From positions 1 through 64,000 of the forward strand of contig JABDHD010000003.1 in NCBI GenBank assembly GCA_013285685.1: DNA of 64,000 nt, read 5' to 3'. Under the pieces are notes generated by a model, which was not told the origin of the DNA, did no database searches, and was given only the letters and a program-made list of their open reading frames with translations. The stretch is from Bacteroidota bacterium (GTDB taxonomy: Bacteria; Bacteroidota; Bacteroidia; Sphingobacteriales; Sphingobacteriaceae). This document shows positions 4,356 through 48,675 of the stretch, one piece after another. The first letter of the stretch is position 1, and each line of letters starts with the position of its first letter. Made by a program: the position numbers and the translations under genes.

Positions 4356-5522
4356 ATGACGCTGAACTCAAACAAAACGATTGGTTTAATATTGTCGCTT
4401 GCGTTGATCTGCGCGTGCCGGAATAATAGCAAACCGGTTACAGCTATTGCGGTTTTACAAGGCCCTCCGATGAAAAATGCTAAAGCGCCGCTTTGCTGTT
4501 CATCAAATATTCCTGCCCGGTTCGCGGTATTAAAAACACCCGTGAATACGGCGACTGTGCTGAGCGACGCCAGGCTTGTTAAATCACAGGAAGGTATGGT
4601 GTGGATCCCCCCCGGCTCGTTTATGATGGGATCAACTGATAAACAGGCTGTCGCCGACGAGTTTCCGAGGCACAAGGTATCTGTTACTGGTTTTTGGATG
4701 GACCAAACGCTGGTAACCAACAACGAATTCAGGAAATTTGCAGAAGCCACCGGCTACGTTACAACAGCCGAAAAAAAACCGGATTGGAACGATTTGAAAA
4801 AGCAGTTGCCCCCGGGTACGCCAAAACCCGACGATAAACTGCTCGTGGCCGCGTCATTGGTTTTTACGCCGCCAACCCACCCGGTAGATCTTAATAATGC
4901 CGGCCAGTGGTGGTCGTGGCGGAAGGGCGCCAACTGGAGGCATCCGCATGGACCAGGCAGTGATATAAATGGAAAAGGAAATTACCCGGTGGTGCAGGTT
5001 TCGTGGTACGACGCCCAGGCTTACTGTAAATGGGCCCATAAACGCTTGCCAACAGAGGCCGAATGGGAATGGGCAGCCCGTGGCGGCTTGGTTGATAAGG
5101 AGTATCCCTGGGGAGATGAGCCCGTTAACACTGGTAAAATAAAAGCAAATACCTGGCAGGGCCATTTTCCCGATCAAAATTCTGTCGCCGATAAATATTA
5201 TTATACCTCTCCTGTAGGCTCTTTTCCGGCAAACGGGTATAGGCTGTATGATATGGCCGGCAATGCCTGGGAATGGTGCAGCGACTTGTACAGCGCCAAT
5301 TATTACAGCACTATCAATACCCCGGCTGGCGTAAACAACCCTACCGGCCCCGCCAAAGGTTACGACCCCGAGGATCCTTACGCCCAAAAACGCGTTCTGC
5401 GCGGCGGCTCATTTTTATGCAATGCCAGTTATTGTTCCGGCTACCGCGTAGCTAACCGGCAAAAAAGCACCGAAGACAGCGGTACTGAAAATACCGGGTT
5501 TAGGTGCGTAAGGGATAAATAG
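4356..5522 (+). CDS. Exported formylglycine-generating enzyme (FGE/SUMF1 family)
   Basis: 388-residue protein. A lipoprotein signal ends at LICAC (Cys21), followed by a linker and an FGE-sulfatase domain from about residue 80 to the end. Family knowledge: aerobic FGE oxidises the sulfatase-motif Cys to formylglycine, using copper bound by two cysteines. These are visible as CNASYC (Cys355 and Cys360), matching the C-x4-C pair of true FGEs and not the many FGE-like proteins that lack it. Other diagnostic blocks are GANWRHPHGP, VSWYDAQAYC, RLPTEAEWEWAARGG, GNAWEWCSD and GFRC near the end. The gene lies directly after the sulfatases, its likely clients. Known bacterial FGEs are usually cytosolic; this one carries an export signal, so modification may happen after translocation. 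Confidence 0.93.
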   Translation: MTLNSNKTIGLILSLALICACRNNSKPVTAIAVLQGPPMKNAKAPLCCSSNIPARFAVLKTPVNTATVLSDARLVKSQEGMVWIPPGSFMMGSTDKQAVADEFPRHKVSVTGFWMDQTLVTNNEFRKFAEATGYVTTAEKKPDWNDLKKQLPPGTPKPDDKLLVAASLVFTPPTHPVDLNNAGQWWSWRKGANWRHPHGPGSDINGKGNYPVVQVSWYDAQAYCKWAHKRLPTEAEWEWAARGGLVDKEYPWGDEPVNTGKIKANTWQGHFPDQNSVADKYYYTSPVGSFPANGYRLYDMAGNAWEWCSDLYSANYYSTINTPAGVNNPTGPAKGYDPEDPYAQKRVLRGGSFLCNASYCSGYRVANRQKSTEDSGTENTGFRCVRDK

Positions 5523-5669
5523 CGGCAGATAGTATATTCCAATATTGGGCCTTGCACTTAATAACCGAACACCGGGAATACGTTTACCGGCTTTCCCGCT
5601 TATGCCCGCCATGCCAGTTTGCGTTTGACACAATGAAAGCATAATTTTATCCTTGTTATAGCGATCATC

Positions 5670-6149
5670 ATGAAAACAAGAAAATTATTAGCCCTGTTAG
5701 GCATTTTATTTCTCCCGGGGTTTGCGCTTGCGCAAAAGGCAGCCCAAATAGTTGAATTCGTTAATCCTGCTACGGTTAACCCACCAAAGGGTTATTCACA
5801 GGCTGCAGTGGTTGATTTGGGGACTTGCAGGATGATCATTATTTCAGGCCAGGTCGCTCTTGATAAAAATGGCAGCCTGGTGGGCAAGGGCGACTTTACC
5901 GCCCAGGCGGATCAATGTTTTCAAAATATCAAAAGTACTTTAGAAAGCGTAGGCGGAGCAATGAACAATGTTGTCCGGCTTGGGTATTATGTTACTGATA
6001 TGGGCCAAATACAGGCGCTCCGGACCATGAGGGACAAATACGTAAACGTTAGCAACCCGCCGACCAGTACATTGGTGCAGATCAGCAAACTGTTTAGAGA
6101 CGACGTGCTGGTTGAAATAGAGGCAACTGCCATCATTCCAAATAAATAA
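5670..6149 (+). CDS. RidA/YjgF-family protein with signal peptide
   Basis: 159 residues. A cleavable signal is visible (hydrophobic stretch ending FALAQ around residue 21), followed by a RidA/YER057c/UK114 fold. Supporting motifs are ISGQVALDKNG, FQNIKSTLESVGGAMNNVVRL, YYVTDM and LVEIEATAII. Family knowledge: cytosolic RidA deaminates reactive enamines and imines and needs an Arg in the P-x-R-S motif. Here that region reads NPPTSTLVQI, so the Arg appears to be replaced, which suggests it is not a RidA-type deaminase but one of the uncharacterised exported subgroups. It stands between the FGE gene and the convergent permease cluster, and no functional link to either is visible. Confidence 0.85.
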   Translation: MKTRKLLALLGILFLPGFALAQKAAQIVEFVNPATVNPPKGYSQAAVVDLGTCRMIIISGQVALDKNGSLVGKGDFTAQADQCFQNIKSTLESVGGAMNNVVRLGYYVTDMGQIQALRTMRDKYVNVSNPPTSTLVQISKLFRDDVLVEIEATAIIPNK

Positions 6150-6191: not shown

Positions 6192-8615
6192 TCACTCACT
6201 CCTCAAACTCTTCACCGGATTTGTTAATGCTGCCTTGATAGATTGAAAGCTAATAGTAATAAACGCAATGGCTATTGCGGCTGTGCCGGCCACCACCGGT
6301 ACCCACCATTGGATCTCCTGCCGGTAGGCAAAGCTTTGCAGCCAGCTGTGCATGGCCCACCAACCTGCCGGTACAGCGATAACGATGGCGATAAGCACGA
6401 GCTTGATAAAATCTTTGGACAACATGCCCACAATGATGGACATGTTGGCGCCGAGCACTTTGCGAATGCCAATTTCCTTAGTTCGCTGTTCGGCGGCGTA
6501 GGCGGCCAGGCCGAACAGGCCGAGGCAGGCGATAATGATGGCCAGCGTGGTGAAGGCGATGGATATGGCGCCTGTGCGCTGTTCGGCACGGTACAGGGCG
6601 TCGAAATTATCGTCGAGGAAGCTGTAGCTAAACTGGCGGTTGGGCGAAAGATCCTTCCATTTGGTTTTGATCTTATCCAGCAACGCGGGAATATTGGCGC
6701 TGTTGATGCGCACGCTGAGCTGCGACGAACCCTGGTTGAGGTTGAAGAGCATCGGGCTGACGTTATCACGCAGCGATTTGAAGTTAAAATCCTTCACCAC
6801 GCCAATGATGCGCAGTTTAACGGTTTTTGAGAAATTGGCATCGCCCGGGGCGTAGATGGGCTGATCGATGGGGTTAGCATAACCCAGCATTTTGGCAAAA
6901 GACTCGTTGATCACCACGGCGGCGGTATCTGTCTTCATGTCTTTTTGGAAATTGCGGCCGGCGATCATTTTTATGCCGAGAGTGGGCACAAAATCTTCGT
7001 CCACACTCCAATCATAGGTTAAAATAGACCGTTTTTGGTCGATCACGGGGTCTTTAAAATAAGTGGTGCTGTTGGTATTAGGGTCAGTTGGCAGTGCGTT
7101 TGAGAAGGATGCCCCCTGCACGTCGCTTAACTGCTTTACCTCATCTTTGAAAGCTTTGGCGGCATTGCCCAGCGCCCAGGTGTTTTGTACCACCAGTATA
7201 TGGTCGCGCTTGTAGCCGAGGTCCTTATTTTGGATATAGCGTAACTGGTTGCTGATAACCAGTGTGCCGACGATAAGGAATATAGAGATGGCAAACTGCA
7301 CTACTACCAAAATACTGCGCAGGCCGCTGCCTTTAAAACCGCCGGCCAGCTTACCTTTTAATACTTGTATGGGTTGGAAGCCCGAAAGAAACAGGGCCGG
7401 ATATGAACCTGCGAGGCAGCCCACCACTACAATGATGATAAGCATAGCGGGCAGCAGCCAGCCTAAGATTTGCCCGGTTACGACAAGTTGTTTGCCCGAT
7501 ATTTGATTGAACAGGCCCAGGAAGCCCCATGCCGCCAATACCGCAAGGATGGCGCCGGCCAGCGTTACCAGGATGGATTCGGTTAAAAACTGGGCAATCA
7601 GCGCCTTTCGCGGCGAACCGAGCACTTTGCGCACACCCACCTCCTTAGCGCGGTTGGCCGAGCGGGCGGTGGAGAGGTTCATAAAGTTGACACAGGCGAT
7701 AAGCAGGATAAAAATGGCGGTTGCCGAGAAAATATACACATAGCTGATATTGCCATTGGGTTCAATCTCGTCAATACTGGCAGAGCGCAGGTGCAGGTCG
7801 GTAAGCGGGATAATATTATAACGAAAATAGCCGCCGTCTTTTTCGAACGTTTTGAAATCCTTGTGCAGGAGGGCCTGTAGCTCGGCCCCCGCATGACGAA
7901 CAATAAACGCAGGCAGCTTGGCCCTGAAGGTTTCAGGGTCGGTCCCCGGCCTGAGCAGCACATAAGTACTGAAGTTGTTGTTGAACCAGGTAGTTTCGCG
8001 GCTTTCAGCAAGGGTTGGCATCGACATGAAGAAGTCGAAATGAAAGTGCGATTGCGCCGGGATATTTTTGATGATGCCGGTGATCTTGTACCGGATGGAA
8101 TCGTTTATGGTGAGCGTTTCGCCCACGGCATTTACCCTGCCGAAATATTTTTTGGCCATGTTTTCGGTAATGACCATTGCATGCGGCGCTGCCAATGCTT
8201 TGGTCGGATCGCCCTGCAGCATAGGCAGCGTAAATACATCAAAAATGGAATTATCGGCGTAAACCATCATATCCTCCTGGATGTTTTGATTGCCTTTACG
8301 CACCTGGTTGCCGCCACGGTTGCGTAAACGCGCTACCTGTTCGATCTCGGGGAAGTCGGCTTTTAAAGCGGCAGCGGCAGGCGCGCCGGTCACGGCATAG
8401 GAGTTTTCCATGCCGCCGAACTTGATCTCGTTGTTGACGCGAAAGATACGATCTGCTTTGGAGTTGTAACGGTCGTAGCTCAACTCGTCGAACACATAAA
8501 AAACGATGAGCAAGCAGGTAGCCAGTCCCAAAGTAAGGCCGAAAACGTTGATGAAAGTGAAGCCCTTATTCTTCATCAGGTTGCGGAATGCGGTTTTGAT
8601 ATAGTTTTTTATCAT
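6192..8615 (-). CDS. FtsX/MacB-type ABC permease P1
   Basis: 807-residue permease with the two-FtsX-domain layout common in Bacteroidota. TM1 lies at about 19-42, followed by a periplasmic MacB-like domain to about 285 and an FtsX block starting near 292 with RAKEVGVRKVLGS at 322-334. A second periplasmic domain follows, then a second FtsX block with KEIGIRKVLGA at 713-723 and the family tail NPVKSLRSE. The paired KE-G-RKVLG motifs probably mark cytoplasmic loops that contact an ATPase (inference). No ATPase domain is fused; the only one nearby is at 25281-25958. It is closest in motif to P2 and P7 (FGLAAYAAEQR). It is last in the minus-strand array and separated from P2 by a 346-base gap, so it may have its own promoter. 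Confidence 0.9.
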   Translation of the reverse strand: MIKNYIKTAFRNLMKNKGFTFINVFGLTLGLATCLLIVFYVFDELSYDRYNSKADRIFRVNNEIKFGGMENSYAVTGAPAAAALKADFPEIEQVARLRNRGGNQVRKGNQNIQEDMMVYADNSIFDVFTLPMLQGDPTKALAAPHAMVITENMAKKYFGRVNAVGETLTINDSIRYKITGIIKNIPAQSHFHFDFFMSMPTLAESRETTWFNNNFSTYVLLRPGTDPETFRAKLPAFIVRHAGAELQALLHKDFKTFEKDGGYFRYNIIPLTDLHLRSASIDEIEPNGNISYVYIFSATAIFILLIACVNFMNLSTARSANRAKEVGVRKVLGSPRKALIAQFLTESILVTLAGAILAVLAAWGFLGLFNQISGKQLVVTGQILGWLLPAMLIIIVVVGCLAGSYPALFLSGFQPIQVLKGKLAGGFKGSGLRSILVVVQFAISIFLIVGTLVISNQLRYIQNKDLGYKRDHILVVQNTWALGNAAKAFKDEVKQLSDVQGASFSNALPTDPNTNSTTYFKDPVIDQKRSILTYDWSVDEDFVPTLGIKMIAGRNFQKDMKTDTAAVVINESFAKMLGYANPIDQPIYAPGDANFSKTVKLRIIGVVKDFNFKSLRDNVSPMLFNLNQGSSQLSVRINSANIPALLDKIKTKWKDLSPNRQFSYSFLDDNFDALYRAEQRTGAISIAFTTLAIIIACLGLFGLAAYAAEQRTKEIGIRKVLGANMSIIVGMLSKDFIKLVLIAIVIAVPAGWWAMHSWLQSFAYRQEIQWWVPVVAGTAAIAIAFITISFQSIKAALTNPVKSLRSE

Positions 8616-14183: not shown

Positions 14184-16659
14184 TTACTCTGACCGCAGGC
14201 TTTTCACCGGGTTTACAATTGCCGCTTTGATGGTTTGGAAGCTTGAAGTAACAACAGCTGCTATCAGCATGACCGCCCCGCTTGCCGCAAATATCCACCA
14301 GCTGATGGTTGTTTTATCCGAATAAGTTTCCATCCATTTGTTCATAGCCAGCCAGGCCAGCGGTGTAACGATTACAAAGGCCAGCAGGATAAGCAATACC
14401 AATTCGGTCGACAGCAGGGTGACTATCTGTGTAACCGATGCGCCGAGCACTTTGCGTACGCCGATCTCCTTGGTACGCTGGCTGGTGGTGTAAATAGCCA
14501 AACCTAACAGCCCAAGGCAGCTGATGAGTATCGATAATCCGGTTGCCCAGGTTAACAGCGTGGATGTATTTTGCTCCTGCCCGTAAAACTGCGCTATGGA
14601 TTTATCATAAAACTGGTAGTTGAAATCGTCGTCGGGATAGCTTTCCTTCCAGATTTTTCCCATGGCGGCAATGGTTTTATTCCAGTCGCCTGCGGTGATT
14701 TCTGGTTTTAAGGCTATATGGAAGGTCCCTGTTTGATAAGTATCATTGGCGCCGCTTGCCAAAATGGCCAACGGATTTATAGGCGATTGCAGCGAATGTG
14801 CGTAAAAATCGCCGATAACGCCGATGATACGCACATTTTTCAAGCCATTGAATTTCTCGAGCTGTTTGCCCACGGCGTCATTCGGATTAGTAAAACCAAG
14901 TATCCTGGCGTACTTTTCATTAATCGCAAGCCCGGTTGTAGAATCACCTGCCTGGATATTACGTCCGGCCAGTATCTTGATTTTATACAGCTTGATATAA
15001 TTTTCATCGGCGTACTTTACCTCAACTTCCGTGCTTAGGTCTTTTTTGCCGTCCTTATAGGTGGCTAACGTGGTGTTGGTTGAGCCCGAAGACGGCGCTG
15101 CAGTACCAACGCTCAACATTTCGATGCCCGGCAAGGCCCGCAGTTTGTTTGCCAATACCCTATTGGTAGTCAACTTACGATGTTTCCAGGGAGAATCGAT
15201 GAATACAATTGCGTCCTTTTTAAAACCAAGGTCCTTATGCAGCGCATAGTAAATTTGCTTGCTTACGAGCACCGTAGCCATGATGAAAAATTGTGCGATC
15301 ACAAATTGCGATACCGTGAGCGATTTGCGCATCCATGCATTGCGGGTTTTATGGCTATTGCTTTGCGCCTGGTTTTTAAGCACCAGCACCGGTTTATAGC
15401 CTGACAGCATGAGTGCAGGATAAAAACCCGACAACACGCTGACGATCACCGTTAAACCAAAAAGGAACAGGAAGATGCCAGGCTGATGGATAAAATCGGC
15501 TTTAACTCCGGACGCGATAAAATCTGAAAACAGCTTTAAGATTACAGGTGTTAAAGCAACCGAAATGATTACGGCTATAAGGGTGATCAGGAATGTCTCG
15601 CTCAAAAATTGTATAACCAATTGCGCGCGGCTGCTGCCCATCGTTTTGCGTATGCCGATCTCTTTGGCCCGCTGCGTGGCCTGCGCGGTTGTTAAATTGA
15701 TAAAGTTGATACAGCCCAATATCAACAAAAAGCCCGCAACTGCCAGCAGCAGGTACAGCCTTGTTTTGTTGGCCGGGCCGCTGTAATCAAAAGTGCCATA
15801 TTTTTGGTCGAAATGAATATCCTTTAAGGGCTGAACGGTAAACGAACGGGAACTTCCACGTTTGATCTCATCGGCGCTTGGCGGAGATTTCTTTTTTAAC
15901 AGGGTATTAACCTGCCGCTCGATGTTTGCGGCCGATGTATGCGGGGCCAGTTTAATAAATACTTCTGATGCGGAATTGGTACTATTCCATTGGTCAAGCT
16001 GCAAATTGTTGCCCAGAGCTGTTTTGGGCGCAGCCGAACTGAACGAAATAAAATCGTGGCACGAAAAATCGGTATTCTGCGTAATAGTTTGCACAATACC
16101 TGTTACCGTCGTCTTCAGCGTATCGTAGGTTACCACTTTGCCAATCATCTGGTCGTACGAGAGCGTGGGAAAATAAAGCTTTGCCTGGTCAGACGTAAGC
16201 ACAACGTGATAAGGCGCGTCCAGCGCGGTGGTGGAAGATCCGGCGAGCCATTTATATTGAAATATTTTAAAATAGTTTTGGTCGGCCAGCGTTACATGAT
16301 CAACTCCCTTAAATTTTTTCGGCTGGTTATTTTTGCCGGTAACTGTTACATCCGTGCCCAGTGTATATAAGGGTGCTGTCAGTTCAACACCAGTAACGTC
16401 ACTTTTAATCGCTCCTGCAAGCGGGCCGCAAACCCCATAGCTATAGCTTGGATTGCCCTGGAACGAATAATTGCTCACTACCCGGTAAATACGGTCGCTA
16501 TCCTTGTGAAATTGGTCAAATGTAAAATCATAGTGGACAATCAGATAAATTACCAGCGATGCGCTGATCCCGATTGGAAAGGCCGATAATGTTGATGAAG
16601 GTAAAAAGCTTGTGCTTCCAAAACCCCCGGAGTGCGATTTTAAAATAGTTCTTTATCAT
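14184..16659 (-). pseudogene. FtsX/MacB-type permease P4, frameshifted near its start
   Basis: Reading from the ATG at 16659 gives MIKNYFKIALRGFWKHK and then ...FINIIGLS, after which the frame breaks. Skipping one base at about 16574-16576 restores IGISASLVIYLIVHYDFTF and the rest of a full-length permease to the family tail NPVKSLRSE at 14184. The span is 2476 bases, one more than a multiple of three, and the corrected product would be about 824 residues. The downstream frame could start at a GTG (16478), but it would lack TM1. The break is not in a homopolymer run, so a real single-base insertion is plausible, though an assembly error cannot be excluded. The remaining sequence has no stops and keeps both KE-G-RK motifs, so the lesion is recent. 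Its upstream region carries the cluster's regulatory elements. Confidence 0.85.
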
Positions 16660-41498: not shown

Positions 41499-41598
41499 AA
41501 GCGCGTTATTAATCTAAAATTAATTTTATTTCGTTTTGGTATGAAATTTGCTTTTTTCAAGTAGATATTGGTCTATTTTAACACTAAAATCTACTACA

Positions 41599-42057
41599 AT
41601 GAAAAGCATCAGCAGATTATTTTTTGTATTGATCGCGGTATTTGCCGGGTTAAATACACTTAAAGCGCAGACTTCACTCAAGGATGACAAGTCCGACCGG
41701 GCTGCCGAAGTGAAAAAATATGTGCAAACCAAAGACTACGTTTTTGAAGCAACAAATAAGGGCAGCATGCCTTTAAGCTACCACAAATACGACGTTGCAA
41801 TCGACAAAGACACCCTGATCGCCAATCTCCCGGGCAGTTCAGGTAAGATCAAATTTGACTGTACCAAATACAACTACAGCGAATGGCGCGGAAAAAATGG
41901 CGACATGAATGTGTTGATCAAGCCAAACACCCAAATGGCCGATGTGAAGCAGATCAAAATGGAGATTACGCCCCAAGGTCATGCAATGGTAGAAGTTGAG
42001 CGCCATCATGGCGGCCCGCTTTCGTTGAATGGCTATGTTAAACAGGAGGACTACTAA
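41599..42057 (+). CDS. DUF4251 secreted protein, paralogue
   Basis: 152 residues from the ATG at 41599; the frame is open to 41548, but the chosen start gives a standard signal peptide (MKSISRLFFVLIAVFAGLNT, cleavage after LKAQ). The mature protein follows the same plan as the preceding DUF4251 protein: QTKDYVFEATNKGSMPLSYH, KYDVAIDKDTLIANLPGSSG, IKMEITPQGHAMVEVERHHGGPLSLNGYV. Sequence similarity to its neighbour is moderate, so the duplication is old. It converges with eutC; a long inverted repeat lies between them. Confidence 0.87.
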   Translation: MKSISRLFFVLIAVFAGLNTLKAQTSLKDDKSDRAAEVKKYVQTKDYVFEATNKGSMPLSYHKYDVAIDKDTLIANLPGSSGKIKFDCTKYNYSEWRGKNGDMNVLIKPNTQMADVKQIKMEITPQGHAMVEVERHHGGPLSLNGYVKQEDY

Positions 42058-42102
42058 TTGAAGTTGAAAGTCGGAAAAGTCAGTAAAGTCCGAAAGAAGA
42101 AA

Positions 42103-42162
42103 AATATCGAACACCAATTTCGAATGATGAATAATGAAGGAAAAAATCCGGTGTTCGATATT
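42103..42162. repeat. Inverted repeat between convergent genes
   Basis: Perfect 13-base arms AATATCGAACACC (42103-42115) and GGTGTTCGATATT (42150-42162) separated by 34 bases. Positioned between the end of the DUF4251 gene and the end of eutC, so it could be a bidirectional terminator or a REP-like element. Confidence 0.75.
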
Positions 42163-42178
42163 AACGTTTAAATAGGTT

Positions 42179-42940
42179 TCACTTCAGCAAGCCTTCATTA
42201 TCCTTCAGTCCCACGCCTGATAGCTTGCGTTTAAAAGCTTCATTTATAAGGTAAAATATCTTTTCGGCCGCTGGTTTGTATTTTAAGCCATGCGGCCGGA
42301 TGTTTGATACGCAGTTGCGCGATTCGTCGGTTAACCCGCGCTTTGGGTTATAGGTAAGATACGCGCCCATGCTATCGGCCGAGCTTAAACCAGGTCGTTC
42401 GCCGATCAGCACCACCGAAAATTTGGCATTCAATTCGCCGGCTATATCATCGCCGATAGCAACCCTCCCCTGCTCCACCAGGCAGATTGGGGCGATCATA
42501 AACTTAGCCGCCAACAATTTTGGGATCAACAGGTGCAGCAAGCCAAAAGCGTTTTCATTAACAGCTGCTGCAGAAAGGCCATCGGCAATAATAATGGCCA
42601 CATCATATCCACTATACCCGGTTAAGTGCTGTGCTGAATCTTCATCCAGTTGCCTGCCCAGGTCGGGCCGTTTAAGGTACCTATGGCGAGTGGGTGCTTT
42701 GCTGTGCAAATGTAATACAGGCAAATCAAAAGCTTTAAGTGCTGTGAATAACCCGTCAACATCCAAAACAGAGTAAACGGCGTCACGGGCGTGCGCGTGG
42801 GCCAGGTTAAATTCAAGAGACTGTTTTAAAGGTATGCTCGTTCCAACCCGGCCAATAGCTATACGGGCAGCCGTAAATTGCTTTAACTGCTTTAATAAAT
42901 CGGGTACTGTCAACTCTTCTCCCATAATATTATTTAACAC
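42179..42940 (-). CDS. eutC: Ethanolamine ammonia-lyase small subunit EutC
   Basis: 253 residues. With EutB it forms the adenosylcobalamin-dependent lyase that converts ethanolamine to acetaldehyde and ammonia. Family motifs: FTAARIAIGRVGTSIPLKQS, FNLAHAHARDAVYSVLD, ADGLSAAAVNENAFGLL, GERPGLSSADSMGAYLTYNP and DESRNCVSNIRPHGL. The protein is shorter than the ~295-residue enterobacterial form because it lacks the N-terminal extension that targets EutC to a microcompartment, which fits the absence of shell genes here. It lies 112 bases after eutB on the same strand; product release and B12 supply must come from elsewhere. Confidence 0.95.
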   Translation of the reverse strand: MLNNIMGEELTVPDLLKQLKQFTAARIAIGRVGTSIPLKQSLEFNLAHAHARDAVYSVLDVDGLFTALKAFDLPVLHLHSKAPTRHRYLKRPDLGRQLDEDSAQHLTGYSGYDVAIIIADGLSAAAVNENAFGLLHLLIPKLLAAKFMIAPICLVEQGRVAIGDDIAGELNAKFSVVLIGERPGLSSADSMGAYLTYNPKRGLTDESRNCVSNIRPHGLKYKPAAEKIFYLINEAFKRKLSGVGLKDNEGLLK

Positions 42941-43052
42941 TATTATTTGACACGAATTGGCACAAATAAGGACAAATGAAAACTCGAATTATAAATAAAG
43001 TCAGCTTGCTATTGGCAAAACACATACTGCAATTATTTGCGATAATTCGATC

Positions 43053-44420
43053 TTATTCGTGAAAATTCGTGTTAATAAATTCGCTTAAAGCCTTGTCATT
43101 TGTGCCGCTTGTTATACCCTGTTTCATAAGCCATCGCTCAAATTCCGGCGCCGGCCTCAATCCCAACACTTTCCGCACATATAGCGCGTCGTGAAACGAA
43201 GTCGACTGGTAATTCAACATGATATCATCCGATCCGGGTATGCCCATAATAAAATTGCATCCGGCTACCCCTAAAAGAGTGAGCAGGTTATCCATATCAT
43301 CCTGGTCGGCTTCGGCGTGGTTGGTATAGCAAATATCAACACCCATGGGCAGGCCAAGCAGTTTGCCGCAAAAATGATCCTCCAGCGCAGCGCGGATGAT
43401 CTGTTTGCCATCGTACAAATATTCCGGACCGATAAAACCGACCACGGTATTTACCAGCAGCGGTTTATATCTCCTGGCCACCGCGTAAGCCCTGGCCTCG
43501 CAGGTTTGCTGGTCCACACCGAAGTGGGCGTTTGCCGATAGGGAACTCCCCTGCCCTGTTTCAAAATACATCACATTTTGGCCAATGGTACCACGGTTTA
43601 GCGACAAAGTGGCCTGGTAAGCCTTATCCAGCAAAGCCAGGTTAATGCCAAAGCTGGAATTGGTGAGCTCCGTTCCGCCTATTGACTGAAAACAAAGATC
43701 AACCGGCGCCCCGGCATTGATCAGCTCCAAAGTCGTGGTAATATGGCTTAACACACACGATTGCGTGGGGATATCAAACTGCTGCCGCACAGTATCGATC
43801 AGTTCCAGCAGCATCCTTACTGTTGCCGGGCTGTCGGTTGCCGGGTTAATACCGATCACCGCATCGCCGCTGCCGTATAGCAGCCCATCGATCATGCTGG
43901 CTGCAATGCCTTTGGGATCATCAGTCGGGTGATTGGGCTGCAGGCGGGTGGAGAAATGGCCTTTTAAGCCAATAGTATCCCTAAACCGTGTCACCACTTC
44001 GCATTTTTTTGCTGCCGCGATCAGGTCCTGGTTGCGCATCAGCTTGGAAACCGCTGCAGCCATTTCAGGGGTTATCCCGGGCGCTATCCCGGCTAAAACA
44101 GCGGTATCGGCCTCATCGCTTAATAACCAGTCGCGAAATTCACCAGTGGTTAGGCTGCTGATTGGGTCAAACGCGTTTTTATCGTGACTGTCGATGATCA
44201 GCCGGGTTACTTCGTCAGTTTCGTAAGGGATAAGTGCCTCATTTAAAAACGTTTTAAGCGGCACATCGGCCAGGGCTATCTGGGCGGCAACCCGTTCTTC
44301 ATACGTTTCGGCGCAGATACCGGCCAGCACATCGCCGGTACGGTAGGGCGATGCTTTTGCCAGCAGCGTTTTTAAATCCGCAAAACGGTAGTTGATGTTC
44401 CTTACTTTATGTCTGAACAC
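43053..44420 (-). CDS. eutB: Ethanolamine ammonia-lyase large subunit EutB
   Basis: 455 residues, almost the same length as other EutB proteins. Recognisable from FADLKTLLAKASPYRTGDVLAGI, the substrate and cobalamin region of the TIM barrel (GLKGHFSTRLQPNHPTDDPKGI, GDAVIGINPATDSP, CVLSHITTTLELI) and C-terminal CNFIMGIPGSDDIMLNYQSTSFHD. It carries the active site and binds the adenosylcobalamin cofactor together with EutC. It sits between the permease and eutC, forming a minimal catabolic operon for use of ethanolamine as nitrogen and carbon source. No EutA reactivase, aldehyde dehydrogenase or regulator is present in the window. Confidence 0.97.
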   Translation of the reverse strand: MFRHKVRNINYRFADLKTLLAKASPYRTGDVLAGICAETYEERVAAQIALADVPLKTFLNEALIPYETDEVTRLIIDSHDKNAFDPISSLTTGEFRDWLLSDEADTAVLAGIAPGITPEMAAAVSKLMRNQDLIAAAKKCEVVTRFRDTIGLKGHFSTRLQPNHPTDDPKGIAASMIDGLLYGSGDAVIGINPATDSPATVRMLLELIDTVRQQFDIPTQSCVLSHITTTLELINAGAPVDLCFQSIGGTELTNSSFGINLALLDKAYQATLSLNRGTIGQNVMYFETGQGSSLSANAHFGVDQQTCEARAYAVARRYKPLLVNTVVGFIGPEYLYDGKQIIRAALEDHFCGKLLGLPMGVDICYTNHAEADQDDMDNLLTLLGVAGCNFIMGIPGSDDIMLNYQSTSFHDALYVRKVLGLRPAPEFERWLMKQGITSGTNDKALSEFINTNFHE

Positions 44421-44495
44421 GATTTATAAGATTTAATGGAATGACAGTATCACATCATTTTATTTGATTAACAGGATCATATCATTCCGTTACTG

Positions 44496-45836
44496 TTACT
44501 TTCCGATAACCGGGCTTACCATATTCTCTTCCGTTAGCTTCACTTTATGTTTCCCCATGAGCGCAAAAATGGCAGTGGCCAGTACTAAGCCACCAAAAAA
44601 GTATAGGCTCAGCTGCCAGTAGAAGTACACCATTGCAACAAGTGTAATGGTGCAAATGACCAGGGCAATCGCAGGGAATACCGGGTAAACCGGTGCGGTA
44701 AACGGTCGCTCCAAATCCGGTTCTTTTTTACGGAGGATAAAGAGGCTTACCATACTTAACATGTACATTAGTACTGCGCCCATTACGGATATGTAAACGA
44801 TTTGGGCGGCCGTACCGGTAAAGAGCGCAATAAAGCTGATTACCCCGCCCGCTACCAATGCCCAATTAGGCGTTTTAAAGCGATGGCTGATGCCAGACAG
44901 GAAACGCGGCATGTACCCGCTTCGCGCCATGGCAAAAACCTGACTGGACGAAGCCAGGATAGTGCCATGAAACGACGCAATCAACCCAAACAAGCCTATA
45001 CCGGCAAATATGCGGGTTAAATTACTGTGGTTACCGAGCGCATATCGTATCGCTTCGGGCAGCGGATCGGAAACACCGCTCAGTTTGCGCCAGTCGGTAA
45101 TGCCGCCTGTGAGGATCATCACGCCAAAAGCAAGGACGATCAGCGTCCCCAGTGCTGAAATATAGCCTTTGGGTATATTGCGTTTTGGCTCCTTCACCTC
45201 CTCGGCTACCATCGCCACGCCTTCTATAGCCAAATAAAACCAAACTGCATAGGGCAGCGCCGCAAACACACCCGACCAGCCGAAAGGCATTGGACGGCTC
45301 ATAAAATTGCCCATTTTGAAATGTGGGGAAACAATGCCCATAAACAGCAGCAATTCGGCTACCGCCAGCACCGTTACAAAAACCGAAAATATTGCCGACT
45401 CCTTTACCCCAAGGTAATTGATGACGATAAATACGACATTAAAAAACAGCGCCGAGTATAAAGGCGGGACAACCGGCCATAAAAAATTGAGGTAAGTGCC
45501 CAGCGCAATGGCTATGGCGGGCGTTGCAAATAAAAAATCGACCAACGTGGCGTAACCGGCAATCAGTCCGCCAAAAGGCCCCATGGCGCGGTAGGCATAA
45601 GCAAAAGCACCGCCGGCATGCGGAATAGCTGCGGTAAGTTCGGTATAGCTGAAAATAAAGGCGATGTACATGACGGTGATGATCACCGTGGCAATTAGAA
45701 AGCCAATGGTACCAGAAACGGCCCACCCGAAGTTCCAACCGAAGTACTCACCGGATATCACCAAACCAACGGCGATGGCCCAAAGATGAATGGGCTTTAA
45801 TACCCTTTTTAGCTGTTCGGGTTTGGCGTTTGTCAT
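44496..45836 (-). CDS. Ethanolamine permease (APC superfamily)
   Basis: 446 residues with about twelve TM segments, characteristic of amino acid-polyamine-organocation transporters. The N-terminal LKPIHLWAIAVGLVISGEYFGWNFGW and the middle YLAIEGVAMVAEEVKEPKRNIPKG are typical of proton-coupled ethanolamine permeases. It is first in an operon with eutB (75-base gap) and eutC, which supports the substrate assignment. Its upstream region carries a REP-like inverted repeat. Localised in the inner membrane. Confidence 0.9.
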   Translation of the reverse strand: MTNAKPEQLKRVLKPIHLWAIAVGLVISGEYFGWNFGWAVSGTIGFLIATVIITVMYIAFIFSYTELTAAIPHAGGAFAYAYRAMGPFGGLIAGYATLVDFLFATPAIAIALGTYLNFLWPVVPPLYSALFFNVVFIVINYLGVKESAIFSVFVTVLAVAELLLFMGIVSPHFKMGNFMSRPMPFGWSGVFAALPYAVWFYLAIEGVAMVAEEVKEPKRNIPKGYISALGTLIVLAFGVMILTGGITDWRKLSGVSDPLPEAIRYALGNHSNLTRIFAGIGLFGLIASFHGTILASSSQVFAMARSGYMPRFLSGISHRFKTPNWALVAGGVISFIALFTGTAAQIVYISVMGAVLMYMLSMVSLFILRKKEPDLERPFTAPVYPVFPAIALVICTITLVAMVYFYWQLSLYFFGGLVLATAIFALMGKHKVKLTEENMVSPVIGK

Positions 45837-46254
45837 GGGCGGATGCAGCTGATTAATTTCCGCTTTAAAATAGTCAAACGGCGGTTTATTTCAAAATGGA
45901 AATTAGCGGGTTTTTTAAAATACCCCTCTAAACCACAAAGGACACAACGAACACCAAGAAAGCGCAAAGAAATATCAAATGCTGTTTGAGTTATTAGCAG
46001 AAAAACTTTGATTATATAAGTGATCCAAAGAAATGGCAAACGCTGCTTTGTGCCCTCCTTTGTGTACCTTTGTGTACCTTTGTGTACCTTGTGGTTAAAT
46101 TTCGTATGTTAAACGGGCTGCATTTCCCGATATCAACACTGTTTACAAATTGTTTATAAATACCCTCAACCTTGTAATGTTTATTTCGTTTAATTCGTAA
46201 TGTCAAATAAAAAAAACAGCTTTAAGTTTGGCGCGTTATTTGCACAAAGATATT
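45837..46254. other. Gap between ethanolamine operon and small paralogue pair
   Basis: 418 bases, divergent promoters expected. It contains a large imperfect inverted repeat (45931-46096) with arms built from AACCACAAAGG / CTTTGTG words, and within the right arm an exact tandem triplication of the decamer TGTGTACCTT (46061-46090). The elements look like dispersed intergenic repeats. No gene is visible. Confidence 0.65.
46061..46090. repeat. Decamer tandem repeat, three units
   Basis: Three exact copies of TGTGTACCTT, followed by GTGG. Part of the right arm of the inverted repeat between the ethanolamine permease and the small paralogue pair. Confidence 0.85.
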
Positions 46255-46539
46255 ATGCTGAAAATAGTTGTTCCTTCAAATACGCCGTCAGGTATAACTT
46301 TCTCATTGTTTGAGCGTTACGGAATACCGGGACCGACATCGGGAATTGATGAGGAAATAAATGACGACCTGGTGTTGAAGTTTGAAAATGAAGAAGAGGC
46401 CGTAGTTTACGCGCAGCAGCTGCAAAACATGGCCGAAGAAATAAATGACAAAACAACTACGCAATATTTGGCGATAAACGATATAATTGTAGCTATAAAA
46501 AGCGATGAATTTGTACAGGATTTTACGAGAAATGAATAA
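46255..46539 (+). CDS. Small protein of unknown function, paralogue 1
   Basis: 94 residues from the ATG at 46255; the frame is open to 46228, but the chosen start matches the next gene (MLKIVVPS against MLRINLPP). Acidic cytosolic-looking protein without signal or TM. Shared pattern with the next gene: short N-terminal strand, F-x-x-Y/R-G-I/L-P-x-P, S-x-G-I, then D/N-D-L-V-L-K-F-x-N-E-x-E-A-V-V-Y-A-x-Q-L (residues ~39-60) and a C-terminal helical part with AINDIIVAIKSDEFV. I do not recognise the family. Nineteen bases separate the two genes, so they form one unit. Confidence 0.75.
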   Translation: MLKIVVPSNTPSGITFSLFERYGIPGPTSGIDEEINDDLVLKFENEEEAVVYAQQLQNMAEEINDKTTTQYLAINDIIVAIKSDEFVQDFTRNE

Positions 46540-46558
46540 ATGAAAAACTTTTAATATT

Positions 46559-46918
46559 ATGTTACGCATCAATCTACCTCCTACCGGGCCCACCCGTGTC
46601 ACAACCGATTATTTCAGGAAATACCGCCTGCCGCTGCCTTCAAAAGGCATTAAAGCCCGGGGCGAAAAAAACACCGAACTGCTGTTTGACAACGAGGATG
46701 AGGCCGTAATTTATGCCGACCAGCTGGAAGAAATTGTGAGCGGTGTAAGCCGCGGATCGCAGTTACGGAGCATGCTGAGGGATATGGTTACCGCCATCCG
46801 TAATGATGATTCCATCCGTAATTACCTGGAGTATTCTTCGGTATATACCTGGGTGAAGAACCGTGTGAGAAACATTCGCATGGCTATTAAGCCGAGCGCT
46901 TCGTTCCTGAAAAATTAA
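46559..46918 (+). CDS. Small protein of unknown function, paralogue 2
   Basis: 119 residues, homologous to the preceding protein over about 95 residues: LFDNEDEAVIYADQLEEIV aligns with KFENEEEAVVYAQQLQNMA, and DMVTAIRNDDSIRNYL with DIIVAIKSDEFVQDFT. It has an additional basic C-terminal tail (WVKNRVRNIRMAIKPS), which gives it the opposite charge character to its neighbour at that end. No signal peptide, TM or known motif. The pair looks like an old tandem duplication; a two-subunit complex is possible but unsupported. Confidence 0.78.
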   Translation: MLRINLPPTGPTRVTTDYFRKYRLPLPSKGIKARGEKNTELLFDNEDEAVIYADQLEEIVSGVSRGSQLRSMLRDMVTAIRNDDSIRNYLEYSSVYTWVKNRVRNIRMAIKPSASFLKN

Positions 46919-47325
46919 GTTTGAGGTTAAAGGCGGGGTAATACGCCCCTTCAGGTCCTTTGTCCATTTGCGGGTTGGCGCCTCAGGTGCTAATCACAAT
47001 TTGTGAAAACCTTGGGTTGATTGCTCGGCAATATTATGTTGGATAGTCATAGTATTGGTTGTGAAACATTATCCCAGACTGACTATACCTGTTTATTTTT
47101 TTTTGAATAACTTTAGGGCCCGCACTTAAGCAATAAGCAGTCACTCAATTAATAACTTTTCCTTTTTATTTTTTAGCATACTTTTAATTAAGTTTTCCGG
47201 GTTGATTGCCCGGCAGATCTTTTTTATAGGCGCTAATCTATAATGGCTCCGATATTATACGATCTGATTTCAAACAATTTAAGGTTTTAATCCTTTAATC
47301 TAAATCTTCACTATGTCAATCAATC
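46919..47325. other. Gene-free gap before phospholipase-like gene
   Basis: 407 bases without a credible ORF. Contains a twice-occurring GGGTTGATTGC-CGGCA sequence (about 47013-47031 and 47200-47216), the second as a small CCGGG...CCCGG hairpin. AT-rich near 47280-47325, consistent with a promoter for the next gene. Nothing else noted. Confidence 0.4.
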
Positions 47326-48675
47326 ATGCGTATACTTCAAATAGGGTTAAAGGGTTTTATCATTGCATTTTTTTTACTACTTAATACGGCCAGGGTGCAG
47401 GCCTATTCAGTGCTCACGCATGAAGCGCTGATCGACGCCAGTTGGGATAAATTCATCAAACCCCTGCTTAAATCAAAATATCCGGGTTCGACTGATGCCC
47501 AACTTAAAGAGGCTCATGCCTACGCATATGGCGGCAGTTTATTGGCCGATATGGGGTATTATCCGTTCGGCAGTACCTATTTTACCAACCTGGCACATTA
47601 TGTAAGGAGCGGCGATTTTGTAGAAAACCTGTTAGAAGAGGCTCAGAATGTTGACGAATATGCTTTTGCAGTTGGCTCCCTTTGTCATTATTTCGCGGAT
47701 GAATACGGCCATTCTCTTGCCACTAATTTAACCGTGCCCGAAGTGTATCCCAAAATAGCACAGCGATTTGGCCCCGTGGTTACCTACGATGAAGATCATA
47801 TCTCGCATAGCCGGGTCGAGCTTTCTTTTGACATACTCGAAATAGCCCGCGGCAATTATGCATCAACTACCTATCATGACTTCATTGGATTCCAGGTGTC
47901 CAAGCCGCTTTTGGAAAGGGCATTTTTGAAAACATACGGCGAGGACATTAACGAAGTATTCGGTGACCTGGACCGGTCAATCTCTACCTTCAGGTGGGCT
48001 GTTAAAAGCCTGTTCCCGGTAGTCACCCATAGTGCATGGCAACTCAAAAAAAATGATATTAAAAAACTGAACCCCAGTATAAATGAGCATAAATTCCATT
48101 ACAAAATGAAGAATAAGGCTTACTATAAGGAGTTTGGTTCATCCCGGGAAAAACCAAAGTTTAAGGAAGTAGTCGTAGCATTCATTATCAAGATCATTCC
48201 GAAGATAGGCCCGTTTAAGGCGTTAAAATTTAAAGATGTCGGTCCCGATGGCGAGAAGAAATTTATCGCCAGCTTCGACACTACGCTCGCCAGGTATGAA
48301 ACAGCGATCGGACGGCTGCAAAGCGGCCCCATTGTGTTACCCGATATAGATTATGACACAGGAAAACCCACCGTCCCCGGCGAATACGGACTGTGTGACA
48401 AAACTTATGATGATTTGCTCGACAAACTAAGCGGCAATAAGTATGCCGACTTAACTGCATCGCTCCAACAAAATATTCTCGATTTTTACAACAAGGCCGA
48501 TACCTCGCAATTCGCCGCAAAATATGGTGCCCAATGGAAAAAGGTCTCGATAGATCTGCAACAGCTTAAGGCGGCTACCCCGATAAAGTTGGACAGTTTG
48601 AAGAATAAAAAAGGCGTGTACTATAAACTTATACAGGAAGCGCCGGCGCCAGCCGGTGGCAAACCCATTAAGTAA
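47326..48675 (+). CDS. Zinc-dependent phospholipase C-like secreted protein
   Basis: 449 residues. Signal peptide ending RVQA (about residue 26), so exported. The N-terminal half has the His-rich all-helical layout of the zinc-dependent phospholipase C / S1-P1 fold: THEAL (His32), NLAHYVRSGD (His91), SLCHYFADEYGHS (His121, Asp125, His129) and DEDHISHSRVE (His158, His161). The C-terminal ~240 residues are Lys-rich and of unknown fold. It probably hydrolyses phosphate esters such as phospholipids using three zinc ions (family inference). Monocistronic; convergent with the following lectin-like gene. Confidence 0.8.
   Translation: MRILQIGLKGFIIAFFLLLNTARVQAYSVLTHEALIDASWDKFIKPLLKSKYPGSTDAQLKEAHAYAYGGSLLADMGYYPFGSTYFTNLAHYVRSGDFVENLLEEAQNVDEYAFAVGSLCHYFADEYGHSLATNLTVPEVYPKIAQRFGPVVTYDEDHISHSRVELSFDILEIARGNYASTTYHDFIGFQVSKPLLERAFLKTYGEDINEVFGDLDRSISTFRWAVKSLFPVVTHSAWQLKKNDIKKLNPSINEHKFHYKMKNKAYYKEFGSSREKPKFKEVVVAFIIKIIPKIGPFKALKFKDVGPDGEKKFIASFDTTLARYETAIGRLQSGPIVLPDIDYDTGKPTVPGEYGLCDKTYDDLLDKLSGNKYADLTASLQQNILDFYNKADTSQFAAKYGAQWKKVSIDLQQLKAATPIKLDSLKNKKGVYYKLIQEAPAPAGGKPIK

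Follow-up and report, generated by a model that had tools for sequence, protein, structure and literature searches.

Adjacent genes that encode two small proteins resembling each other, and nothing with an assigned name, raise the question of what kind of protein they specify, how the pair arose and what it might do. The pair lies in the window (the whole stretch of DNA analysed here, 64,000 nucleotides), and its parts are as follows.

46255..46539, including stop, + strand: gene A, encoding an acidic protein of 94 aa (pI 4.07, net charge -12), of the type found alone in most family-bearing genomes
46540..46558, + strand: A-B spacer, 19 nt from the stop of A to the start of B (16-25 nt across 23 pairs)
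46559..46918, including stop, + strand: gene B, a 119-aa paralogue of A (pI 9.78, net charge +6) with an extra, predicted basic C-terminal helix

A family of small proteins

Both frames are intact on the + strand, and their products are homologous (BLASTP, 30% identity and 61% positives over 90 residues, E 3e-18 in a single comparison), which confirms an earlier note, made from the letters of the window, that had described tandem homologous small proteins 19 bases apart. With B as query, A is recovered at E 1.7e-11, and nothing else apart from B itself reaches E <= 10 in the source assembly, which is 71% complete. The common core reads L-x-F-x-N-E-x-E-A-V-x-Y-A-x-Q-L, represented by NDDLVLKFENEEEAVVYAQQL in A and KNTELLFDNEDEAVIYADQL in B; the motif proposed earlier holds except for its leading D/N-D-L, which belongs to A only. 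Likewise, the reported difference in C-terminal charge is borne out by the two isoelectric points but was incomplete, as B also possesses a tail of about 25 residues beyond its homology to A, which has no such tail, and the entire net charge of the window's B is located past residue 91. A mechanical list of open reading frames places the start of A at TTG 46228; ATG 46255, which lines up with the MLxI at the beginning of the related proteins, is the better choice.

Homologues exist outside the strain: the family is present in 73 of 149 Mucilaginibacter genomes (query A alone, E <= 0.001), and a deeper profile returns the same number. Two copies are carried by 23 of these genomes and a single copy by 50. 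Wherever there are two, they are direct neighbours with a shared orientation, A first and B second (23/23; gap 16-25 nt), so the proposed check of pair order came out in favour of conservation; A also directly precedes B at all eight named loci found with query B. Matches in a Sphingobacteriaceae sample (54/399 genomes, 5 of 25 genera) include five genomes outside Mucilaginibacter; against a profile built without their sequences, four of these give E 7.9e-12 to 9.8e-9 and the fifth gives E 4.4e-4. A class-wide sample gave matches at E <= 0.01 in 9 of 345 genomes, six of them Mucilaginibacter and three weak ones in larger ORFs (E 8e-4 to 4e-3, ORFs of 356-568 aa) that are taken as chance, and in a phylum-wide sample every one of the matching genomes (4/296) is a Mucilaginibacter. 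The nearest known proteins, uncharacterised Sphingobacteriaceae relatives from genera g12, g13 and g20, share with A a similar length, the P-x-P stretch and the F-to-YA core, at 27-33% identity. In two of them (L068 and L070, both g12), the A-like gene begins at an ATG that shares bases with the stop codon of an OsmC gene (TAATG), with no DUF4251 gene directly before it; translational coupling to the OsmC gene is possible. An endonuclease/exonuclease/phosphatase-like gene, named by eye, lies downstream of these A-like genes, near 8254 in L068 and near 8237 in L070.

Membership in a described family was judged by whether the profile score passed the curated cut-off of Pfam or NCBIfam, or else by a significant E-value. 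Neither protein has a credible match in Pfam, NCBIfam or PHROGs or any match in PADLOC, eight relatives gave nothing credible in Pfam (lowest E over the family searches 0.024, scores under the cut-offs), and a profile search of PDB sequences reached E 0.018 at best, over part of the profile only, which is not credible; the earlier statement that no domain is recognised thus stands. Among the papers listed by searches of the open-access literature, none on the family came up. A and B are real, conserved sister genes of a family without recognised relatives or function. Of the idea of a conserved two-protein unit founding a new family, the unrecognised family survives, but the single gene is the commoner state (50/73) and the pair is probably derived. 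One real, selected, unannotated protein family is in this way added to the Sphingobacteriaceae, although by itself it opens no long-standing question.

A largely fixed locus, often beside an ethanolamine cassette

The neighbourhood was mapped by clustering in the window and 40 further stretches, with Pfam names taken from ten neighbour proteins that were profile-searched. Mucilaginibacter accounts for 36 of the mapped stretches (13 with the pair, 22 with a single copy and one, L074, with a divergent single copy elsewhere). The context genes in the window are these.

41548..42057, + strand: DUF4251 protein gene (PF14059, E 6.7e-10)
42179..42940, - strand: EutC, ethanolamine ammonia-lyase light subunit (PF05985, E 2.4e-89)
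43053..44420, - strand: EutB, ethanolamine ammonia-lyase large subunit (PF06751, E 1e-219)
44496..45836, - strand: amino-acid permease-type gene, AA_permease_2 (PF13520, E 1.9e-40), divergent from A and adjoining eutB and eutC

Among the 35 stretches at the common locus, HtpG is found in 29, DUF4251 in 30 and a xylose-isomerase-like TIM-barrel gene in 27. The remark that no neighbour explains the two proteins accordingly needs qualification: the A locus is largely fixed (htpG, DUF4251, A; permease-eutBC; TIM-barrel gene), yet no neighbour is obligatory and no single partner gene recurs throughout the family. Downstream of B in the window (47326-48675) lies a zinc-dependent phospholipase C-like gene (PF00882), at the position that the TIM-barrel gene takes in 27 of the 35 stretches.

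Two arrangements recur at the locus. In 17 single-copy stretches without eut genes at the locus, the DUF4251 gene stops 2-52 nt upstream of the A frame in an operon-like manner and the TIM-barrel gene follows. In 12 of the 13 pair stretches and in five single-copy stretches, the permease gene and eutB lie beside A and are transcribed away from it, usually with eutC (unassigned in L081), and in 12 of these 17 eut-bearing stretches the DUF4251 gene is found beyond the far side of the cassette. The close spacing in the first arrangement would suit a two-gene operon in which A functions with the upstream DUF4251 protein, the eut cassette between them being only secondary, and L072, a weak family match from another genus, has a DUF4251 gene about 1.1 kb upstream. 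This reading is nonetheless unlikely, given that DUF4251 is retained in 9 of 12 family-negative stretches, that it was not found upstream within the stretch in five pair stretches (L090, L093, L095, L097 and L099), and that an OsmC gene or other genes occupy its position in other genera.

Distinctly unlikely, too, is a role of A and B as accessory or regulatory proteins of the permease-EutB-EutC cassette, transcribed divergently from it. Physical linkage speaks for such a role: A is divergent from eutB, 1.5-1.9 kb apart, in 40 of the 59 genomes having both (40 of the 73 family-bearing genomes), and a conserved element upstream of A (described below) sits between A and the permease gene, in the stretch from which both genes read outward. 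The distribution does not follow the linkage, however, as eutB matches occur in 59/73 family-bearing and in 52/76 family-negative genomes (odds ratio 1.9, Fisher p 0.09), and 14 of the 73 family-bearing genomes have no eutB match, some of these assemblies being incomplete. The stretch L096 (genome G062, 4748-5687) is a natural loss of the cassette beside an intact pair: eutC is in two frames, eutB is a 35-residue remnant (residues 415-449) and no permease match is left, whereas A and B are intact. Conversely, of 12 eut loci in family-negative genomes, nine retain DUF4251 beside eutC, five of these with the TIM-barrel gene right after the permease gene, and the profile finds no A among the ORFs called at the 12 loci, in agreement with a six-frame search of the genomes. 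Nor do A and B match any Eut family in Pfam or NCBIfam, and the family is not confined to eutBC-bearing genomes. The pair is independent of the eut cassette, and the linkage was set aside as an account of function on the strength of the eutB distribution, the loss in L096 and the family-negative eut loci. Minimal ethanolamine-catabolism clusters that have no microcompartment are a known kind. The window resembles them in having a permease gene, EutB and EutC next to A and B, but differs in that A and B are neither required for such clusters nor limited to them. One case of metabolosome-free ethanolamine catabolism has been described (PMC9426561), and a search of the open-access literature yielded no paper on ethanolamine ammonia-lyase in Mucilaginibacter.

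The intergenic region before A contains one further feature.

46214..46237, + strand: degenerate copy of a conserved element, departing at one position from AAACASCTTT-N4-TT-N3-GTGTT; TAAGTTTG lies within it at 46223-46230

A loose form of the pattern, AAACA(C/G)N, 8-14 bases and (G/A/T)TGTT, starts 59-65 nt before A in 20 of the 23 pair genomes (it is missing in L026, L035 and the window); of the 41 unique upstream regions of single copies, just 2 fit it. A TAnnTTT(G/A) box lies inside the element in 14 of the 23 pair genomes, and this box, like TAAGTTTG in the window, resembles the Bacteroidetes -7 box. When the tighter pattern given above (at most one mismatch) was searched in six genomes, the sole match was the one before A in three. 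The genome of the window adds a single match at another place, and the remaining two genomes match only at other places, their own elements differing too much. A Markov control gave a mean of 0.23 and a maximum of 3 of 23 over 300 runs, figures that are post hoc, ignore relatedness and are descriptive because the motif was derived from the same sequences. A free search for the best inverted repeat before A gave other arms more often than AACACC/GGTGTT, so the element is described as conserved with inverted-repeat-like arms and not as a proven operator. The loose-motif match at window position 15528 was regarded as chance, as it falls inside a long opposite-strand ORF (ABC-permease-like, by eye). 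An Rfam search of 42000-47400 returned a lone match with an E-value of 0.8 and a score of 20.9 bits, where the cut-off is 78.3. A short tandem repeat with a TTTGTGTACC-type unit (by eye) occupies 46059-46094, between the permease gene and A, and is absent from aligned relatives.

Charge, conserved residues and predicted fold

The A proteins of pairs are acidic in 23/23 cases (net -11 to -15) and their B partners have a pI above 9 in 22/23, the exception being L018 at 6.58. Single copies, with B absent, have a pI of 4.05-4.29 in 30 of 41 unique sequences, and the remainder are milder or, in L059, L106 and L107, basic. These three basic single copies (pI above 9) have a C-terminus that differs from that of most singles, with eut genes beside the gene. 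Within the B proteins of pairs, the core is near neutral (-4 to +3) and the remainder carries +4 to +7; the best 18-residue window of the tail, computed for 23/23, has a net charge of +4 to +6 and a hydrophobic moment of 0.39-0.72, so that the tail can, as far as sequence predicts, form an amphipathic helix. Across the 23 pairs, the net charges of A and B are uncorrelated (Spearman -0.02, p 0.93), and the charge split is no evidence of co-adaptation between A and B because most singles are equally acidic in genomes that have no B.

The AlphaFold2 (AF2) model of A, built from 60 family sequences, has a mean pLDDT of 91.1 and the order beta-alpha-beta-beta-alpha-alpha-alpha. That of B (41 sequences, mean pLDDT 76.9) repeats the order of A and adds a helix at 94-109, predicted at low confidence in blocks of mean pLDDT 63 and 52, with residues 110-119 below 50. 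At E <= 0.001, Foldseek found nothing in the PDB for either protein, nor did A match any viral model; VIA-align gave best Z scores of 4.7 (A) and 5.5 (B), both under the tool's informative level. On these models, the predicted fold would be neither assignable to a known fold nor claimable as new from absent matches. The invariant or near-invariant columns (M1, L2, I4, P25, P27, G30, L41, F43, E46, A49, Y52, L56, I81 and D84) are mostly hydrophobic, proline or glycine, with no histidine, cysteine, lysine or arginine among them, and would make up a hydrophobic core and turns. As they offer no candidate catalytic set, a binding role seems likelier than an enzymatic one.

Size, order and charge, with an acidic small gene first and a basic one second, also fit a toxin-antitoxin or orphan-immunity-like pair with an inverted-repeat-like element at its promoter, and that element is nearly locus-specific, the copy before A being the only match in three of six genomes. 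The immunity protein CdiI (5j4a_B), a small alpha/beta protein like A, appears among the high-coverage VIA rows with a weak structural overlap (Z 4.2, 78 aligned residues, rmsd 3.8), but unrelated folds score equally, it is not among the PDB sequence matches and no linked toxin was recognised. A and B are moreover homologous to each other, one copy stands alone in 50/73 genomes and the locus is largely fixed. Mobile elements offered nothing for this reading either: A had no match on plasmids and B none in phages, and a search of viral contigs with the family profile, in which one peptide pattern was scanned, confirmed no relative. Neither protein matches a toxin or antitoxin model in Pfam, NCBIfam or PADLOC, and neither CdiA nor any other toxin gene was recognised nearby (ten neighbour proteins profile-searched, maps by clustering). 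A toxin-antitoxin or immunity function is very unlikely.

A probable duplication history and a possible mechanism

Family and species trees point to the way in which the pair arose. In the family tree (84 rows on a short alignment of 95 columns), the B rows of pairs fall into one group (23/23; support 96/90) and the A rows of pairs into another (23/23; 87/87), and the Mucilaginibacter single copies fall on A's side with weak support (81/47). An HtpG tree of 37 genomes (eight with the pair, 21 single and eight without the family) places 8/8 pair genomes on one side of one branch (99/96) and requires three changes to account for family absence. Given a single clade of B rows and a single HtpG clade of pair genomes, the most economical history involves a single tandem duplication and several losses of the family. 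The single gene is probably the ancestral state, B probably arose as a copy of A, and the pair is the derived condition, seen in what seems to be a single clade within Mucilaginibacter. How deep the A/B split lies is uncertain, as the alignment is short and the long branch of B carries a flag for meeting a second long branch, and an older duplication with losses of B is conceivable; the direction and time of the duplication are what we infer. This evolutionary part of the preferred explanation is held with considerable confidence, lowered somewhat because the grouping of the singles with A is weakly supported. The locus would provide a reasonably clear example of a tandem copy that, at a largely fixed position, switched charge and acquired a helix, and for which the single-copy relatives serve as internal controls.

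Both genes are under purifying selection, with a median dN/dS of 0.146 for A (range 0.08-0.49) and 0.031 for B (range 0.00-0.11). Of 253 genome pairs, these values use the 13 in which dS falls between 0 and 1.5 for A and B alike; the 13 share genomes and are non-independent. That B is a decaying duplicate without function, as its absence from 50/73 family-bearing genomes might suggest, is hence disfavoured and scarcely credible, its frame being open in 23/23 pair genomes and its sequence more constrained than that of A (0.03 against 0.15). A and B thus belong to a real, selected and unannotated family of narrow range, with a derived tandem pair.

For the function of the family, the preferred explanation is a binding module, A, that was duplicated into an acidic/basic hetero-oligomeric pair. 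A would be a small, soluble, acidic single-domain protein that binds another macromolecule as an adaptor or regulator, a reading favoured because there is no sign of a catalytic residue set. After tandem duplication of its gene in one Mucilaginibacter clade, B would have retained the fold while shedding the acidic surface and acquiring a basic, amphipathic helix at its C-terminus. The two proteins would be translated from one message, an A-B hetero-oligomer would take over the ancestral A-A contact, and the helix of B may either tether the complex to the inner membrane or dock on an acidic partner, A itself or some other one. The single transcript, the oligomerisation, the anchoring or docking and the adaptor or regulatory role are what we infer from the features above, and the mechanism as a whole is put forward tentatively, as a possibility more doubtful than probable, because A and B show no covariation in charge and the singles are equally acidic where B is absent. 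A more ambitious joint reading, by which a new small domain, possibly of an undescribed arrangement (beta-alpha-beta-beta-alpha-alpha-alpha), became through one duplication an obligate acidic/basic heteromer that acts as a membrane-associated regulator via the basic helix, is a long shot; if it were true, the nearly locus-specific upstream element would be an autoregulatory operator. Among the remaining family members, one in L074 (Mucilaginibacter genome G066, 7754-8290) is a divergent protein of 179 aa with a long extra C-terminal region, encoded at a different locus.
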